From NCBI RefSeq assembly GCF_000420705.1, contig NZ_ATVL01000007.1, forward strand, positions 558,001 through 622,000: 64,000 nt of DNA, read 5' to 3'. Numbering within the stretch: the stretch's first letter is position 1; each line of letters starts with the position of its first letter. Position numbers and translations under genes: made by a program. This document shows, piece after piece, positions 47,696 through 59,008 of this stretch. Origin of the DNA: Hymenobacter norwichensis DSM 15439. Its GTDB lineage: Bacteria; Bacteroidota; Bacteroidia; Cytophagales; Hymenobacteraceae. A model generated the notes under the pieces. The model ran no database searches. It had not been told where the DNA came from and saw only the letters and a program-made list of their open reading frames with translations.

Positions 47696-48119
47696 ACGCG
47701 GCAGCAAAATGAGAGAGGGTGTAGATAGCAAAGATAGGTTTTTGGGGTCGGCCAGCGCCAACCCAGCTTGCAACTCCTCTAACCGGCCCCGCCGCCCCTT
47801 TCCACCAGCCTGCACCAGCGCACTACAGACGGGGCAGGCGCAGGGCGCGAGTGCCCGCGCCGAGTACCGGGCACGCACTAGGCGGTAACGCTCTTGGCTA
47901 TGAATACTGGCTGTGATTTTCGTTGAAAACGAGCCGCAGGAAGGCGGGCTTTACCACATGCTTATGTGATTGGGGAAGTAGCAGCGCTTTGTTTTATTTG
48001 TGAGGCTATGGATAGGTAAATTGTTGATAGCCAAAATATAAACCGTGAGGGAGCTGCGGCGTGGCGGAGTGAATACAAGGCGGTTAGGAGTGGTAAGTGG
48101 GACTTTCAGCAGGAACAGG
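47696..48119. other. Intergenic region upstream of the injection-system remnant
   Basis: 424 bases between the divergent symporter and tail-sheath genes. Besides the symporter promoter it holds a GC-rich part (47755-47880) and an AT-rich part (47960-48045). I find no full -7 match that would drive the sheath gene, and no RNA gene or repeat. Confidence 0.45.
47729..47761 (-). promoter_or_regulatory. Promoter of the dicarboxylate symporter gene
   Basis: On the minus strand TTG at 47761-47759, a 22-base spacer and TATCTTTG at 47736-47729, a full -7 match. It supports the ATG at 47695 as the start. Confidence 0.65.
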
Positions 48120-49556
48120 ATGCCAGGACCAAGCAAAACACCGGGAGTTTATGTGGAGGAAATACCGAAGTTCCCGCCTTCGGTTGCCGCAGTGCCAACG
48201 GCCATTCCGGCCTTCGTCGGCTACACCCAGCAGGCCCAGCGCACCACCGCCAACGACCTGCATCTGCAACCGACTCGCATTACATCCATGGCAGAATACC
48301 GCCAGTATTTTGGGGGGCCACAGCCTGAAACTGCCGTTGCCGTCACCATCACCGGAACGCTAAAGGCCGCCGGTAAGTCTGCAACGAATGTAGTGGCTAC
48401 ATTGGCGGAAACGGCCCGTTCCCGGCATATTCTCTACTATGCCATGCAGCTGTTTTTTGCCAACGGGGGCGGGCCCTGCTATATCGCGTCGGTGGGGCTG
48501 TACAAGCCGCTAGGAACGGCGCTTGTCTTGGCCGAACTGACCGCCGGCTTGGCTGTGCTGCGGGCCGCCGACGAGTTAACTCTACTGGTATTGCCTGAAG
48601 CGCAGGCTCTGGCTTCCATCATCGATTTTAAAGCCCTGCAAGATTTGGCTCTGGCGCAATGCGCCCTGCGCCAAGACCGTTTCGTGCTGCTGGACGTGCA
48701 CGGCGACGGGGTTTCTCTGAACGAGCCCGGCCCTGATTTCCTGACGGTCATCAACAACTTCCGCCGTAGCGGCATAAGCTCCGGCAACCTCCGCTACGGA
48801 GCCGCCTACGCGCCCAACCTGGCCACCGTGCTGGACTATGCCGTGGACGAGGGCGCCGTTGTGGTACACTCTTTTCAGGGTTTCAAGCGGGCAACTATCA
48901 CCACTTTAAGTAGCCTGGCTACCACCAATCCGCAGCGCTATGAGCTGGCAAAAGCTGCCATTCGGGACCTGCCCTGCAAGCTGCCGCCTAGTGCGGCCGT
49001 GGCGGGAGTATATGCCACTGTTGATGCTAGCCGGGGTGTTTGGAAAGCACCGGCCAATGTGAGCTTGGTGGCGGTGCTGAAGCCAACTTTCGCGCTAACC
49101 AACGCCCAACAGGACCAATTGAACGTGGACCCGGTAGCCGGCAAATCGGTGAATGCCATTCGGGAGTTCGTTGGGAAAGGCACGCTGGTGTGGGGCGCCC
49201 GCACCCTGGCCGGCAACGACAGCGAATGGCGCTACGTGAACGTGCAGCGGCTGTTTCTTTTCGTGGAGGAATCAGTGAAAAAAGCCATCCAGCCATTCGG
49301 GTTTGAACCCAACGACGCCACCACTTGGGGGCGGGTACAGAGCATGGTTGAAAACTTCCTGCTTACGCTCTGGCGGCAAGGCGCTTTACCGGGCATTAAG
49401 CCGGAACACGCCTTTTACGTGGCCGTGGGGCTGGGCAGAACCATGACTGCCCTTGATATTCTGGAGGGCCGAATGGTAGTGGAAATGGGTTTGGCCGCCA
49501 CGCGTCCCGCCGAGTTTATCGTCCGGCGGTTGGTGTGCCGCATGGCTAGTGCCTAA
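48120..49556 (+). CDS. Contractile tail sheath protein (phage tail/eCIS type)
   Basis: 478 residues from the ATG at 48120; the frame is open to 48045. The N-terminus GPSKTPGVYVEEIPKFPPSV is the classic start of phage and extracellular injection system sheath proteins, followed by AVPTAIPAFVGYTQ. The C-terminal domain is complete: VWGARTLAGNDSEWRYVNVQRL, FVEESVKKAIQPFGFEPND, ENFLLTLWRQGALPG and LDILEGRMVVEMGLAATRPA. Sheath subunits polymerise around an inner tube and contract to drive it into a target. No tube, baseplate, spike or terminator gene is in the window, so the protein appears to be an orphan. The reading frame shows no damage. Confidence 0.9.
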   Translation: MPGPSKTPGVYVEEIPKFPPSVAAVPTAIPAFVGYTQQAQRTTANDLHLQPTRITSMAEYRQYFGGPQPETAVAVTITGTLKAAGKSATNVVATLAETARSRHILYYAMQLFFANGGGPCYIASVGLYKPLGTALVLAELTAGLAVLRAADELTLLVLPEAQALASIIDFKALQDLALAQCALRQDRFVLLDVHGDGVSLNEPGPDFLTVINNFRRSGISSGNLRYGAAYAPNLATVLDYAVDEGAVVVHSFQGFKRATITTLSSLATTNPQRYELAKAAIRDLPCKLPPSAAVAGVYATVDASRGVWKAPANVSLVAVLKPTFALTNAQQDQLNVDPVAGKSVNAIREFVGKGTLVWGARTLAGNDSEWRYVNVQRLFLFVEESVKKAIQPFGFEPNDATTWGRVQSMVENFLLTLWRQGALPGIKPEHAFYVAVGLGRTMTALDILEGRMVVEMGLAATRPAEFIVRRLVCRMASA

Positions 49557-49645
49557 TGCTGCTGATGTCGTTAGCGGCCACCCAACCATGTTGTGGTGCT
49601 GTTACAGTGGTTTGAATTTCACGGGTATAAAAACACAGTCATGCT

Positions 49646-50542
49646 ATGGCCTACTCCTTTACTATCAGTTCCAACGTGCTGCCCAACGGCCGGACTGCCT
49701 ACCTTGGTGCGCGGCTGAATTCTCCGGAAGCGCGCTTCACCATTGGGTATAGCACCCGGTATCAAGACAATTTTGGGCTCTACAACACCGATGTGAAAGC
49801 CGGGCTGGTTTATCAGCCGGGCACGTACCGGGCCCGGCACGGCTTCTGGGTGGATTTCATTTACCCGACCGCCTACGTGGAAAGCAAAGGCTCGTTTTTC
49901 TGCCTCAATACCTACGACCGAGCCCGGTTCACGTTCGGGTTCATGCAATACGCCGCTCATGTTCCCAACGGCGACTTTGTACGCTATGTGCGGGCGCTGC
50001 TGCAACTACCGCTGGCCGCCGAATATTTCCCGCGGCTAACACTGAAACAGAACCGCATCTGTTACCAAAGCAACGATGAAACCCTGACGCCGCTGGAAAG
50101 TGACACGTCCACCAAGGGGCTGATGGAATACCTGAACCCGACGCTGCTGGACATTGAAACGCAGGAAACCATCTGCGCTGCCCGTATGGTGCACTGGGCT
50201 CAGCATGATGCGCTCAATCAACAAACCCAGGTGGAGCTAGCTGTTACCCATTTTCAGGCCAATCTGCCGCGCTACCATCGGCGGCTCGGCCTCGACCAGG
50301 CCCCGGCTCGGGTGTGCATAGTGGTATGCGACATTCTGCACCAGGGCCGCGCTACCTTCGACCGGATTGCCGCGGCCCTAAACACTGGTGGCAATTGGGA
50401 CCGGGCCTACGCCAATCTGCTAACCATTGGGGCCGCCAACTATGCGGAGCGCATCAAGTCCCTGAAGCAAAAAATTGCTGAAGGCGTCGGGACGGGAGTG
50501 CTGCAAAAGACCTACCACGCAGCTACCAACACGTTTGTATGA
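49646..50542 (+). CDS. Probable lysozyme-like protein linked to the sheath gene
   Basis: 298 residues, no signal peptide. I do not recognise a named family, but residues about 68-105 look like a lysozyme/lytic transglycosylase core: Glu79 in YPTAYVESKGSFFCLNTYD, then RARFTFGFMQYAAH with the GFMQ turn typical of these enzymes (compare GLMQ in soluble lytic transglycosylases). A second region, ARVCIVVCDILHQGRATFDRI, recalls the end of chitosanase-like lysozymes. It could cut peptidoglycan for passage of a contractile device. Its stop overlaps the ATPase start (ATGA), so the two are translationally coupled. Glu79 as catalytic residue is inference. Confidence 0.55.
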   Translation: MAYSFTISSNVLPNGRTAYLGARLNSPEARFTIGYSTRYQDNFGLYNTDVKAGLVYQPGTYRARHGFWVDFIYPTAYVESKGSFFCLNTYDRARFTFGFMQYAAHVPNGDFVRYVRALLQLPLAAEYFPRLTLKQNRICYQSNDETLTPLESDTSTKGLMEYLNPTLLDIETQETICAARMVHWAQHDALNQQTQVELAVTHFQANLPRYHRRLGLDQAPARVCIVVCDILHQGRATFDRIAAALNTGGNWDRAYANLLTIGAANYAERIKSLKQKIAEGVGTGVLQKTYHAATNTFV

Positions 50543-51433
50543 GTGCCGAAAAAAACCGTACGCCGGTTCGTCCTGGCCAATTGGGTGCCTTGCAGCCCCG
50601 GTCCAGCTATGTAGCGGCGCCGCTTGGCGCCGTAAGTAACTCACTGGCTTTTCCTACTGAAGTCCTCGCAACGGATATTGAACGGGACGACTTGGTGCTA
50701 CACCCCGATACCTTGCGCCAGGTGCAGGCAATGGCCCGCCAGCTTGCACCTGGTTCGGCTGCATCCGGGCTGGGGGCCTCAAGTCCCGGCTACCGGGCTC
50801 TGTTCTATGGACCGGCTGGTGCCGGTAAAACCCTAACGGCTGCTGTACTAAGCAAATATCTGGGCAAAAAGATAGTGCGTATCGACGCCGCGCAGGTAGT
50901 GGCCAAGTACAGCAGCGAAACCGAGAAAAACCTGGCGCGTCTCTTCGAACAAGCGGAAACTAACAACTGGGTGCTATTTTTCGACGAAGCCGACGCCCTG
51001 TTTGGGAAGCGTACCGGTATCCGCAACGCCCACGACAAGTACGCCAACCAAGAAGCCAGCAACCTCTTGCAGCGCCTTGAAGCGTACAAGGGTGTAGTAA
51101 TACTAGCTGCCGAGCACCGCACCAACCTCGATGATGCCTTCTTGCGGCGCCTTCGCACCATCATCCAGTTTCCGGCCCTTTGAGTGGAAGAGCGGGCGGT
51201 AATCTGGCAAAAGACGATTTCCTAACAGCTCAGTTTAGCTCCCGACATCGAATAACCGCAAGTGGCAGCCCCCCCACGAGCTTACCGGAGCGGCTATCCT
51301 GCAAGTTGTTCACTGTTGTACCACTGCACTGGCCGCCGCTGGTAGCCAGCAACTGACGCTGAAACAGTTGGAAGATTGTATTCGACAAGAAACCAGCAAA
51401 GCAGCACAAGCAGTGCGTGGCATTGGGCGCTAA
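50539..51433 (+). pseudogene. AAA+ ATPase of contractile injection system type, C-terminal part broken
   Basis: An intact frame of 214 residues (50539-51183) contains Walker A GPAGAGKT (91-98), Walker B VLFFDEADALFG (Asp149, Glu150) and the arginine-rich AFLRRLRTIIQFPAL, then stops at TGA (51181). Beyond it the same frame encodes VEERAVIWQKTIS, a TAA at 51223, QLSLAPDIE and a TAA at 51253; after a frame change near the C7 run at 51269-51275 the next frame gives ELTGAAILQVVHCC and LTLKQLEDCIRQETSK, ending at 51431. These pieces in order form the lid domain of the AAA+ ATPases found in injection system loci. Three stops and one frameshift make the full protein unlikely; a truncated 214-residue product remains possible. 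Confidence 0.82.
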
Positions 51434-55899: not shown

Positions 55900-55951
55900 T
55901 TAGCAGGTATTGCTAATAAAATTAGTATATTGAGTTCAGTTAGCAACTAAT
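55900..55951 (+). promoter_or_regulatory. Inverted repeats upstream of the Ub-like/DUF4132 pair
   Basis: TTAGCA (55900-55905) with TGCTAA (55911-55916), and ATTAGT (55921-55926) with ACTAAT (55946-55951), in an AT-rich stretch that ends 9 bases before the start codon. No full -7 match is present (nearest TATATTGA). Possible operator; weak. Confidence 0.35.
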
Positions 55952-55960
55952 CTTTCCCTT

Positions 55961-56353
55961 ATGGCTTACCTCACCATTCAGGACGAAACCGCCACCGGCA
56001 GCATCCTCAACCGGCTGGAGCTGGAAATCACCCAAGAAACCCTCACCGTGCGCGAACTGATAGCTCAGCGCGTGCAGCAGGAAGTGGCCACCCACAACGC
56101 CCAGCAGTCGGAGGTGTACCGCGGGCTGGTGCAGCCCACCGAGTCGGAGCAGGTGCTCAACGGGTTTCGGCTGCGCAAAATCAAGCAGATTGATGCGGAG
56201 GAGCAAGTGTATAAGGCGTTGGAAGGCTTCCAGCAAAACGGCTATTTCGTGCTGGTAAACAACCGGCAGGTGGAAAGCCTGGACGAGGAAATCTGGTTGG
56301 GCGCAGGCGCTACGGCCAGCTTCATCAAACTTACACCGCTGGTTGGTGGCTGA
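55961..56353 (+). CDS. Ubiquitin/MoaD-like beta-grasp protein ending in Gly-Gly
   Basis: 130 residues, not annotated to any family I know. The start AYLTIQDE, then LNRLELEITQETLTVRELIAQRVQQEV in parts (strand, then helix), and the end FVLVNNRQV, DEEIWLGAGATASF, KLTPLVGG follow the beta-grasp order. The last 35 residues read like MoaD, whose C-terminus also runs strand, turn, strand and ends -PPVxGG: here PLVGG closes the protein exactly, with no residue after Gly130. Between helix 1 and strand 3 lies an insert of about 45 residues with a charged helix (DAEEQVYKALEGFQQ). In known relatives the terminal Gly is activated by an E1-like enzyme. The DUF4132 gene starts 87 bases downstream. Confidence 0.72.
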   Translation: MAYLTIQDETATGSILNRLELEITQETLTVRELIAQRVQQEVATHNAQQSEVYRGLVQPTESEQVLNGFRLRKIKQIDAEEQVYKALEGFQQNGYFVLVNNRQVESLDEEIWLGAGATASFIKLTPLVGG

Positions 56354-56440
56354 GTTGGCCTCGTTTTGGGCCGGCCTGTTGCCTGCGCCGTCTGCACTGC
56401 CTGGGCCGGCAAGTCTTCCGTAGTACCTTCTTCTTCGCCT

Positions 56441-59008
56441 ATGACCACCAAAGAAAAAAAGGATTTCACGAAGCTGCTTGGCAGCCAAAGCCCCGAAGCC
56501 ACAGAAATGCGGCCACTGTTGCTGCAATTCCTAACCGAAATCCAGGACCGTAACCTGAGCTATTGGAATGTGAAGCTCTCGGAAATAACGGCTTACCAGA
56601 CGCTCAAATACAAGGATGTGGCCTATAAAGGGCGCCTAGCGCTGGCTACGGCGGAGGCCATGCGCCAGCAAACCGATGACTACCAGATTCGCCATCAATT
56701 AGAGGCCCTGTTGCAGATGTTGCTGCGCTCCACGTTGGGGCTGGGCAGTGACGGGCTGTTGCGGTTGCTAGGCCTGTACGGCTTGCAGGAAGGCCAGACA
56801 GAACTAAGTGCTTACACCACCGCTATGTACCGGTTTCCGCTGCTGCTCACCTTGGGGCAAGTAGATAAACTGGCCAAAAAAGAAAGTTTGTCGGATGAGC
56901 TGATGGCGCGCTTACATCATCTGCTTGCCCTTACGGCCAATAATACCAGTGACGCAGGCGTGGCGAAAATGCGGGTGAAGGTGCAGGAAATACTCGGCAA
57001 ATCGGAAGGTGCTGCCGATGCGCTGCCCGTAGTGCGCTTCGCCGACGGCGACTTTTTCGGCCAGCAGCTGAACACGGTAGCGGAGCAACTGCACTACGAT
57101 AACCCGGCGGCGCGCCCCTGGCTGACGCTTCTGCAATTGTGGCAGAAGGCTAGTGGCTCGCAGCCCTCCGCTAAGTTTCGGAAAGAGCTGGATGCTACGG
57201 TGGCGGCTATAGGCGAGCCGGAAGTACAGGCGCGCGGTAACGATTTGCTAGGGTTGCTGCTGCGGGTAGCAGTGGAGGAGCGCCAGAATAGGTACAGCTA
57301 CGGTGATGGTAGCACCCGCACGTATACTGAGTACGTGTGGGTGCTGGAGCCTAATCTAAACGTAGCCAAAGGCCTCATCTGGACCATGCAGGCGGTGGCC
57401 AACGAAACTACCCTGCACCAACTGGCCGATTTGGCAGTGAAATGTTACCGCAAGATTCCGGGCCGCGGGCCGCTGGCGGCCAGTCTCGGTAATGCTTGCC
57501 TGCTGGTATTGGCTGAAAGCGGGCTGGCCGGCGTAGCCTACCTCTCGCGGGTGCGGCCCAAAATCAAGCAGTCGAATACGCAAAGCCTCATTGCGGGGCA
57601 CATCGAAAACGCCTCCGAAAAGCTGGGTGTGAGTCCGGCCGAAATTGAGGATATGGCCGCGCCGGATTTTGGGTTGCAGGCGGGGCAGGTTCAGCATGAA
57701 TTCGGGGAGTACAAGGCTACGTTGCGGCTGGTGGCTGGCAAAGCCGAGGTGCAGTGGGAGAAAGCCGGCAAACCGTTGAAGTCGGCTCCTGCGGCCATCA
57801 AGAGCATGCACGCCGAGGAGTTGAAGGACTTGAAAAACACTCAAGCGCAAGCCCAGCAGACCTTCACGGCCCAGCGGGAGCGGCTTGACCGGAGCTTCGT
57901 GGACGAGCGGCGGATTCCGTTTGCCTGGTTTCAGCAGTACTATTTCGAGCACGGCCTGATGGCTGAACTCGCGCGCCCGCTCATCTGGCGTTTTCATCAT
58001 GCCGAGGGCTCTTTTACGGATGCGCTGTGGCTGGATGGCACTTGGTGCGACAACCAAGGAAATCCACTGGCACCGCGTTCCGAAGCCGATACCGTGCAAT
58101 TATGGCACCCCGTGCTAACCGACAGTACACAGGTTTTGGCGTGGCGCAACTTACTGGACGCGCGGCAGTTGCGCCAGCCGCTCAAGCAAGCCTACCGAGA
58201 AGTGTACCTGCTGACGCCGCCTGAGGAGCGCACCCGCACGTACTCTAACCGCATGGCGGCGCACGTGCTCAAGCAGCACCAATTCAACTCCTTAGCCAAG
58301 CTACGCGGCTGGCACTACAGCCTGATGGGCGCCTACGACAAAGGCTACGAATCGGATTCGGCCACGCTGCAACTGCCGGCGCACGATTTACGGGCCGAGT
58401 TCTGGGTGAGTGAAGTTAACGCCAACGACGCATTCAACGACACCGGCATCTGGAACTACATCAGCACCGACCAAGTGCGTTTCACCCGCATGAATGCCGA
58501 CGAGCCTTTGCCGCTGCCCGAGGTACCGCCGCTGGTGTTTTCGGAAGTGATGCGCGACGTGGATTTGTTTGTAGGAGTGGCTTCCGTCGGTAATGATCCG
58601 CTCTGGCGCGACAATGGCGGTTTGGTGCAATACCGCAATTACTGGGAAAGCTACAGTTTTGGGGAGCTGGGCGAAGTGGCCAAGAACCGCAAGCTGGCTC
58701 TGGAACGGCTCGTACCGCGCCTAAAAATTGGGAAGGTGAGCGAAATCAAGGGCAATTTCCTGGAAGTGCAGGGCAAGCTGCGGACCTACAAAATCCACCT
58801 CGGCTCGGGCAACATCCTCATGATGCCCAACGACCAGTACCTGTGCATCGTGCCCGACCGGTCCACCAAAACCGCCAGCACCGCCGGCGTATTCCTGCCC
58901 TTCGAAGGCGACGCCGTGCTGTCCATCATCCTCAGTAAAGCCCTGCTCCTGATGGACGACGACAAGATTACCGACGACACCATCATGCGCCAAATCAAGC
59001 AGCGGTAG
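56441..59008 (+). CDS. DUF4132 domain-containing protein
   Basis: 855 residues from the ATG at 56441; an earlier start at 56366 is possible but its extension has no pattern. The N-terminal 350 residues are helical repeats (LLQMLLRSTLGLGSDGLLRLLGLYG in parts). Around 550-720 lie the DUF4132 blocks: FVDERRIPFAWFQQYYFEHGLM, PLIWRFHHAEG, VQLWHPVL, RQPLKQAYREVYLLTPPEE. The end (FSEVMRDVDLFVGVASVGNDP, KIHLGSGNILM) is the usual closing domain. E. coli YehI is the best-known relative; there it lies beside MoxR and VWA genes, absent here. The pairing with the Gly-Gly protein is unusual. Biochemical function unknown. Confidence 0.8.
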   Translation: MTTKEKKDFTKLLGSQSPEATEMRPLLLQFLTEIQDRNLSYWNVKLSEITAYQTLKYKDVAYKGRLALATAEAMRQQTDDYQIRHQLEALLQMLLRSTLGLGSDGLLRLLGLYGLQEGQTELSAYTTAMYRFPLLLTLGQVDKLAKKESLSDELMARLHHLLALTANNTSDAGVAKMRVKVQEILGKSEGAADALPVVRFADGDFFGQQLNTVAEQLHYDNPAARPWLTLLQLWQKASGSQPSAKFRKELDATVAAIGEPEVQARGNDLLGLLLRVAVEERQNRYSYGDGSTRTYTEYVWVLEPNLNVAKGLIWTMQAVANETTLHQLADLAVKCYRKIPGRGPLAASLGNACLLVLAESGLAGVAYLSRVRPKIKQSNTQSLIAGHIENASEKLGVSPAEIEDMAAPDFGLQAGQVQHEFGEYKATLRLVAGKAEVQWEKAGKPLKSAPAAIKSMHAEELKDLKNTQAQAQQTFTAQRERLDRSFVDERRIPFAWFQQYYFEHGLMAELARPLIWRFHHAEGSFTDALWLDGTWCDNQGNPLAPRSEADTVQLWHPVLTDSTQVLAWRNLLDARQLRQPLKQAYREVYLLTPPEERTRTYSNRMAAHVLKQHQFNSLAKLRGWHYSLMGAYDKGYESDSATLQLPAHDLRAEFWVSEVNANDAFNDTGIWNYISTDQVRFTRMNADEPLPLPEVPPLVFSEVMRDVDLFVGVASVGNDPLWRDNGGLVQYRNYWESYSFGELGEVAKNRKLALERLVPRLKIGKVSEIKGNFLEVQGKLRTYKIHLGSGNILMMPNDQYLCIVPDRSTKTASTAGVFLPFEGDAVLSIILSKALLLMDDDKITDDTIMRQIKQR

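Follow-up and report, generated by a model that had tools for sequence, protein, structure and literature searches.

A putative ubiquitin-like protein with a conserved Gly-Gly end and its DUF4132/DUF7737 partner in Hymenobacter norwichensis

What is the role of a small protein with a free C-terminal Gly-Gly when its gene lies immediately before that of a large DUF4132 protein? This question is raised by a two-gene locus of Hymenobacter norwichensis DSM 15439, which is located in a stretch of 64,000 nucleotides (contig NZ_ATVL01000007.1, positions 558,001 to 622,000; hereafter the window). An earlier note, prepared from the letters of the window, had described a 130-residue protein ending in LVGG and a DUF4132 gene 87 nucleotides downstream, and both proved to be as described. 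The open reading frame (ORF) encodes 130 amino acids terminating in ...KLTPLVGG and is closed by a TGA codon. The partner gene on the same strand begins with an ATG 87 nucleotides past that stop codon, and its product matches both DUF4132 (Pfam E 1.2e-41; 143 bits compared to a curated cut-off of 27) and DUF7737 (Pfam E 1.8e-38). The best reading of our data, which we hold with a confidence slightly short of even, is that the locus encodes a stress-linked ubiquitin-like protein (Ubl) whose Gly-Gly (GG) end would be activated by an E1-type enzyme and passed to the DUF4132/DUF7737 protein.

Relatives of the Ubl are present in 19 of 61 genomes of the genus and 30 of 291 genomes of the order, and a profile search recovered them in 11 of 395 genomes of the phylum. 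The order count excludes G299, whose match is GuaA as judged by reading its sequence, and is a lower bound because the single query sequence used missed a divergent Ubl in G109. Surroundings were taken for 15 of the 20 places of one homologue search; in the order search, those of four Hymenobacter matches were left out. No relatives were found in viral contigs and phage records. Conservation of the terminal GG among homologues had been set beforehand as decisive, and the motif is indeed kept, as evident by its presence at the exact terminus in 47 of 75 locus entries spanning four phyla. The other 28 entries lack a GG end, one of them being a truncated reading. A 20-row alignment with identities down to 34% has invariant L127 and G129, with G130 in 19 of the 20 rows, and the invariant residues of a 32-row alignment are V38, L127 and G129. 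Two Ubls that were found later (L250 and L251) lack even the glycine at position 129. Outside the phylum, the tails read LVGG in Nonomuraea, LKGG in Novosphingobium and LAGG in four Deinococcus records, and a DUF4132 gene follows directly in each case. The family divides into subfamily A (Ubl of ~130 amino acids, GG end, partner of ~610-880 amino acids) and subfamily B (Ubl of ~140 amino acids, partner mostly of ~1690 amino acids). Subfamily B tails from Bacteroidota are LAGSYW, LTGTYW, LVGQ, LVGI, LSGRLW and FLKNSF, whereas the Deinococcus pairs are B-like by partner, yet retain GG.

In 66 of the 75 entries, the partner gene comes next on the same strand, at most 3 kb downstream, and in 60 the two genes are 200 nucleotides or fewer apart. 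One place was counted twice (L258 = L107), such that 65 of 74 distinct entries have the partner. This adjacency count is inflated because five entries (L147, L155, L156, L162 and L167) came to light through their DUF4132 genes; their removal leaves 61 of 70 with the partner. Where the partner is not adjacent in the order sample, it is found elsewhere in the carrier genome. The co-occurrence with DUF4132 anticipated by the earlier note is complete in the sampled order, where all 30 Ubl carriers have the domain compared to 52 of the 291 genomes overall. However, DUF4132 in itself is too broad a definition of the partner, since 20 genomes with DUF4132 and no DUF7737 yielded no Ubl in the one-query order search. 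DUF7737 is present in 30 of 30 carriers versus 3 of 261 non-carriers (33 of 291 overall; Fisher values for these genome counts ignore relatedness). Among the three non-carriers, G109 has a subfamily-B Ubl beside its partner, G179 matches with a fragment that lies at the end of an 8580-base contig, and the 508 nucleotides before the partner gene of G183 contain no Ubl. The true partner is thus not DUF4132 as such but a DUF4132 protein of the type that also carries DUF7737, since all Ubl carriers have this second domain and genomes with DUF4132 only yielded no Ubl.

This distinction may also separate the partners from the MolR/YehI-type proteins of Escherichia coli, which we take to be assigned to DUF4132. 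E. coli has a match to PF13569, the domain shared with the partners, whereas the DUF7737 columns are missing in 13 of 14 sampled DUF4132 proteins that lack a Ubl, an alignment from which the E. coli protein is absent. The gene molR has been listed as a LexA-regulated or SOS gene (PMC4576408, PMC3978071).

In five loci, a ThiF-family gene lies directly after the partner gene. One of these (L059) is from the same order, and the other four (L103, L245, L247 and L248) are from one genus in another family of the class. The gene order is Ubl, DUF4132 protein and E1, with overlaps or gaps of 1-4 nucleotides, and all five loci are GG-tailed. The encoded proteins are 194-237 amino acids long, and the two that were scanned consist of ThiF alone (Pfam E 2.5e-62 and 1e-50) with no rhodanese domain. 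All five keep GAGGLG, NLHRQ, the CTD Asp and a cysteine aligned with that of MoeB-type proteins, and the L059 protein is short at its C-terminus. They share one branch of an unrooted FastTree phylogeny (support 0.90), separate from groups that we take to be rhodanese-bearing MoeB-type and TcdA-type proteins. At L246, the fifth GG locus of the same genus, the contig ends inside the partner gene, and G659 carries additional, separate ThiF-family genes. These five operon genes support activation of the GG tail. In the window, the absence of nearby E1 and JAB genes reported by the earlier note agrees with our results: neither of the two upstream genes matches an E1 or JAB family of Pfam, the other neighbors were judged by eye, and no model search was aimed at MoxR, VWA or E2 genes. 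The Prok-JAB model has no match in the whole window genome (G000). This genome carries two ThiF genes on contigs other than that of the pair, which they share with its two ThiS/MoaD-type genes, and these enzymes could serve the Ubl.

A candidate site for receiving the Ubl emerged from a comparison of 480 partner columns. Of these, 53 are conserved at 95% or more in the partners of GG-tailed Ubls, and just three of them (L554, P557 and C802) drop to 15% or below in the other partners, the next lowest column being at 67%. H556 of the LWHP motif that includes L554 and P557 is conserved to 85% or more in each of the three DUF4132 groups that were compared. All 40 adjacent pairs with GG have cysteine at position 802, versus 3 of 25 without GG (24 distinct, as L258/L107 is included twice; L084 was left out of the non-GG column control). 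The Ubls of those three pairs are a truncated one, one ending in LVGV and one ending in LAGSYW; the other non-GG pairs have Ser (15), Tyr (2) or one each of Pro, Met, His, Asn and Ala. The cysteine is also found in all ten further type-A partners that have no Ubl in the stretch examined. The association between GG and cysteine is suggestive, not proven, because two or three independent changes underlie it.

Profile comparison supports, without proving, the beta-grasp fold that the earlier note had assigned to the Ubl. When aligned by hhalign with ThiS/MoaD proteins of the same organisms, residues 93-130 fall in register up to the GG with a score of 23.1, compared to 11.7 for a reversed control and 17.35 for the best of 150 column shuffles (L080 and L258 left out of this control comparison). 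With a set of 74 rows, the score was 22.2 compared to 16.7. Searches of PDB sequences with the Ubl profile returned six sub-significant rows, including Urm1 (E 1.2 and 1.4); the corresponding searches returned none for DUF7737 and nothing better than E 2 for the DUF4132 protein. In Pfam, the Ubl matches neither ubiquitin nor ThiS (nothing at E≤1 for the latter), and hence we do not file it as a ThiS-family member. The pair resembles the ThiS, MoaD and Urm1 systems with their ThiF, MoeB and Uba4 E1 enzymes in its free terminal GG, in the E1 superfamily of the five related operons and in the register of its C-terminal third. It differs in the length of the Ubl (130 amino acids), in the additional residues that separate the first helix from the third strand in the predicted order, in the missing Pfam match and in its DUF4132/DUF7737 partner. 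When set beside the operon layouts of Bil/BUB and CBASS type II systems and the vWA-MoxR FtsH ternary systems, the pair likewise has a Ubl that in some genomes comes with an E1, in a context of stress or conflict. It differs in comprising two or three genes and in showing no association with JAB, whereas Bil/BUB-type operons unite E1, E2 and a JAB protease. The ternary system is described in PMC7159879 and PMC8195603. UvrA rows at Z≤3.0 in a structure comparison were judged to be noise.

The link to stress comes from Deinococcus radiodurans, whose homologous pair is drA0165-drA0166 (SEP068184). The Ubl has an LAGG tail, and the partner carries DUF4132 and DUF7737 together with a large DUF5724 N-terminus. 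In the literature DRA0165 is called a conserved hypothetical protein or a small peptide (PMC8533742, PMC9650054). According to PMC8533742, it meets all DdrO criteria, forms a putative operon with drA0166 and has an operator at -83; induction of the protein by mitomycin C is marked yes/yes, and a figure legend names a DRA0166-V5 protein. We find the damage operator upstream of the pair in all four Deinococcus records, with 1-2 mismatches from the published consensus. Deletion of DR_A0165 made cells more resistant to H2O2 and raised catalase, whereas gamma and UV treatment revealed weaker effects (PMC9650054). In the same study, a set of 157 proteins was co-precipitated by DR_A0165 whether it was tagged at its N- or its C-terminus; a tag of the latter kind would mask the GG. 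Since the mutant is more resistant, a simple protective role does not fit. The same source describes the gene as confined to Deinococcus, with no damage operator upstream of DR_A0165; both statements are contradicted by the homologues outside Deinococcus and by the operator upstream (L174:9800-9962; also PMC8533742). In three Hymenobacter genomes (L005, L028, L074, L010 and L078, several being the same place), an exact palindrome, TTGCTAAT[AG]AAATTAGTA, lies upstream of the Ubl and is a possible operator.

From these data, we infer a small modifier, probably of beta-grasp fold, whose free GG would be adenylated by a ThiF/MoeB-type E1 that is operon-encoded in some genomes and presumably a housekeeping enzyme in others. 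The Ubl would then be passed covalently to the DUF4132/DUF7737 protein, most likely as a thioester on the DUF7737 cysteine, which could be the acceptor or a carrier for onward transfer to targets. The system would be used under stress, as suggested by its induction upon DNA damage in Deinococcus. A bolder version, which we consider doubtful, is a widespread minimal modifier system in which one large protein takes over from both E2 and E3, using the DUF7737 cysteine and perhaps also the LWHP site of DUF4132 to accept the Ubl as a thioester and attach it to targets in DNA-damage and oxidative stress. If that version is correct, DUF7737 would be a new kind of Ubl-transfer domain, and this branch of DUF4132 would be explained. 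The pair may constitute a system for protein tagging or sulfur carriage that has been overlooked. Among the papers listed by searches of the open-licence literature, most of them judged by title and the start of the abstract, none was recognized as linking a Ubl with DUF4132. The proposal, if correct, would place DUF7737 and a branch of DUF4132 in a function class. An orphan DNA-damage operon of Deinococcus would become a testable ubiquitin-like pathway and would show how few parts are needed. To tell covalent from non-covalent action, the subfamily that has lost both GG and cysteine offers a natural control.

Several observations weigh against this reading. Bacteroidota members of subfamily B lack GG and are still paired with the partner, so that the covalent picture drawn by the earlier note stays conjectural. 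The window locus has no E1 gene, and E1 genes adjoin 5 of 47 GG entries versus none of 28 others, which is too few to link them with GG. The JAB domain shows no association with the Ubl (9 of 30 carriers versus 48 of 261 others, p 0.15), and it was rejected as a hidden partner on this basis. Cysteine partners accompany one LAGSYW Ubl and one LVGV Ubl, and L152, a partner-like protein with no Ubl found nearby, has a DUF7737-like end without the cysteine. A tree shows three tail changes and three cysteine changes, giving two to three independent contrasts, and an independent-pair sign test with two supported pairs has no power (p 1; L080 was left out of both). As for the fold, the hhalign probability is only 18%, and AlphaFold models built from the window and 6-7 Hymenobacter sequences are poor (pLDDT 52 and 58). 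The modeled order of the Ubl, strand-helix-helix-strand-strand-strand, is of low confidence and would suit a beta-grasp that carries a helical insert. Foldseek and VIA-align (the latter with the Ubl model only) gave no usable PDB match.

The retention of the pairing without GG would be accommodated if the Ubl is a folded, non-covalent partner of the DUF7737 end, with a tail that docks in a groove and is never conjugated. The adjacent pair is kept in subfamily B, where two tails have no Gly in their last eight residues, so a non-covalent role has to be considered. It would also suit the near one-to-one pairing of Ubl and DUF7737, and the 42 of 47 GG entries with no E1 gene in the stretch examined (some cut by contig ends). 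However, this explanation leaves unaccounted for the exact-end GG in distant phyla, the E1-type gene in five operons and the cysteine that tracks GG, and we regard it as unlikely, though the strongest competitor. We consider less probable still that the Ubl is a sulfur carrier. In that case, the E1 would convert its C-terminus to a thiocarboxylate, as for ThiS, MoaD and Urm1, and the sulfur would go to the large protein or its cysteine to serve a cofactor, RNA or redox need. The end motif and E1 superfamily are those of ThiS/MoaD, and the sub-significant Urm1 matches point the same way. The D. radiodurans pair adjoins trxC and two YeeE/YedE genes, presumably for thiosulfate uptake, and modA, thiD and a thiazole synthase gene lie within ~10 kb. 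In addition, the DR_A0165 protein bound Trx1 in a pull-down (PMC9650054). Against this, three other Deinococcus loci lack these sulfur and cofactor neighbors, the operon E1s have 194-237 residues with no rhodanese domain in the two scanned, and genes other than the partner recur in at most 8 of 48 Bacteroidota loci.

It is very improbable that the Ubl is a spare MoaD acting with its partner in molybdopterin metabolism, even though PMC8533742 suggests that the DUF4132 protein DRA0166 may act in molybdopterin biosynthesis and modA is close to the D. radiodurans pair. Two further genes of ThiS/MoaD type are present in the window genome, three other Deinococcus have no modA in the vicinity of the pair, and moeA and moeB were not differentially expressed (PMC8533742). 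A chance tail beside chance neighbors, for which nothing was found in favor, can for practical purposes be dismissed: tail conservation and the co-occurrence counts refute it, and the pair recurs across otherwise differing neighborhoods.

The long ORFs that flank the pair on both sides are on the opposite strand, and the pair therefore looks like a two-gene unit. Its features are listed in Table 1.

Table 1. Positions within the window of the two genes and their features
Feature	Position	Strand	Basis
Candidate operator, imperfect palindrome TTGCTAATAAAATTAGTA	55910..55927	+	Sequence comparison
Ubl, putative ubiquitin-like (MoaD/Urm1-like) protein, 130 amino acids, LVGG end	55961..56353	+	ORF and translation, homologue alignments, ThiS/MoaD profile comparison
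V-G-G codons, last three Ubl residues	56342..56350	+	Sequence, conservation; stop codon 56351-56353
DUF4132 + DUF7737 protein, 855 amino acids counted from ATG	56441..59008	+	Translation, Pfam
DUF4132 domain (PF13569)	57767..58312	+	Pfam; residues 444-625 of P0002 (starts one codon before ATG)
LWHP motif, residues 554-557	58100..58111	+	L and P altered in partners whose Ubl lacks GG
DUF7737 domain (PF24879), part co-occurring with Ubl (P0001)	58679..58996	+	Pfam, column comparison, genome counts
Cys802 codon TGC	58844..58846	+	Cys in 40/40 adjacent partners of GG-tailed Ubls

Some loci show variations on this arrangement. In some Hymenobacter (several of L079-L092), the pair is directly preceded by a SWIM zinc-finger gene and a DUF6493/DUF7824/DUF7825 gene (6 and 8 of 48 loci). 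The DUF4132 partner occurs in several copies, some in tandem, in the genomes of L061 and L083 (G250 and G042; 4 and 5 per genome). Apparently broken copies are found at L080 and L074/L028, with an in-frame stop in the Ubl or a partner gene in two pieces. Elsewhere in the window, positions 48045-51183 encode two tail-type proteins, one of them tail-sheath-like, along with an AAA ATPase, which together by eye resemble a contractile-tail or injection cluster.

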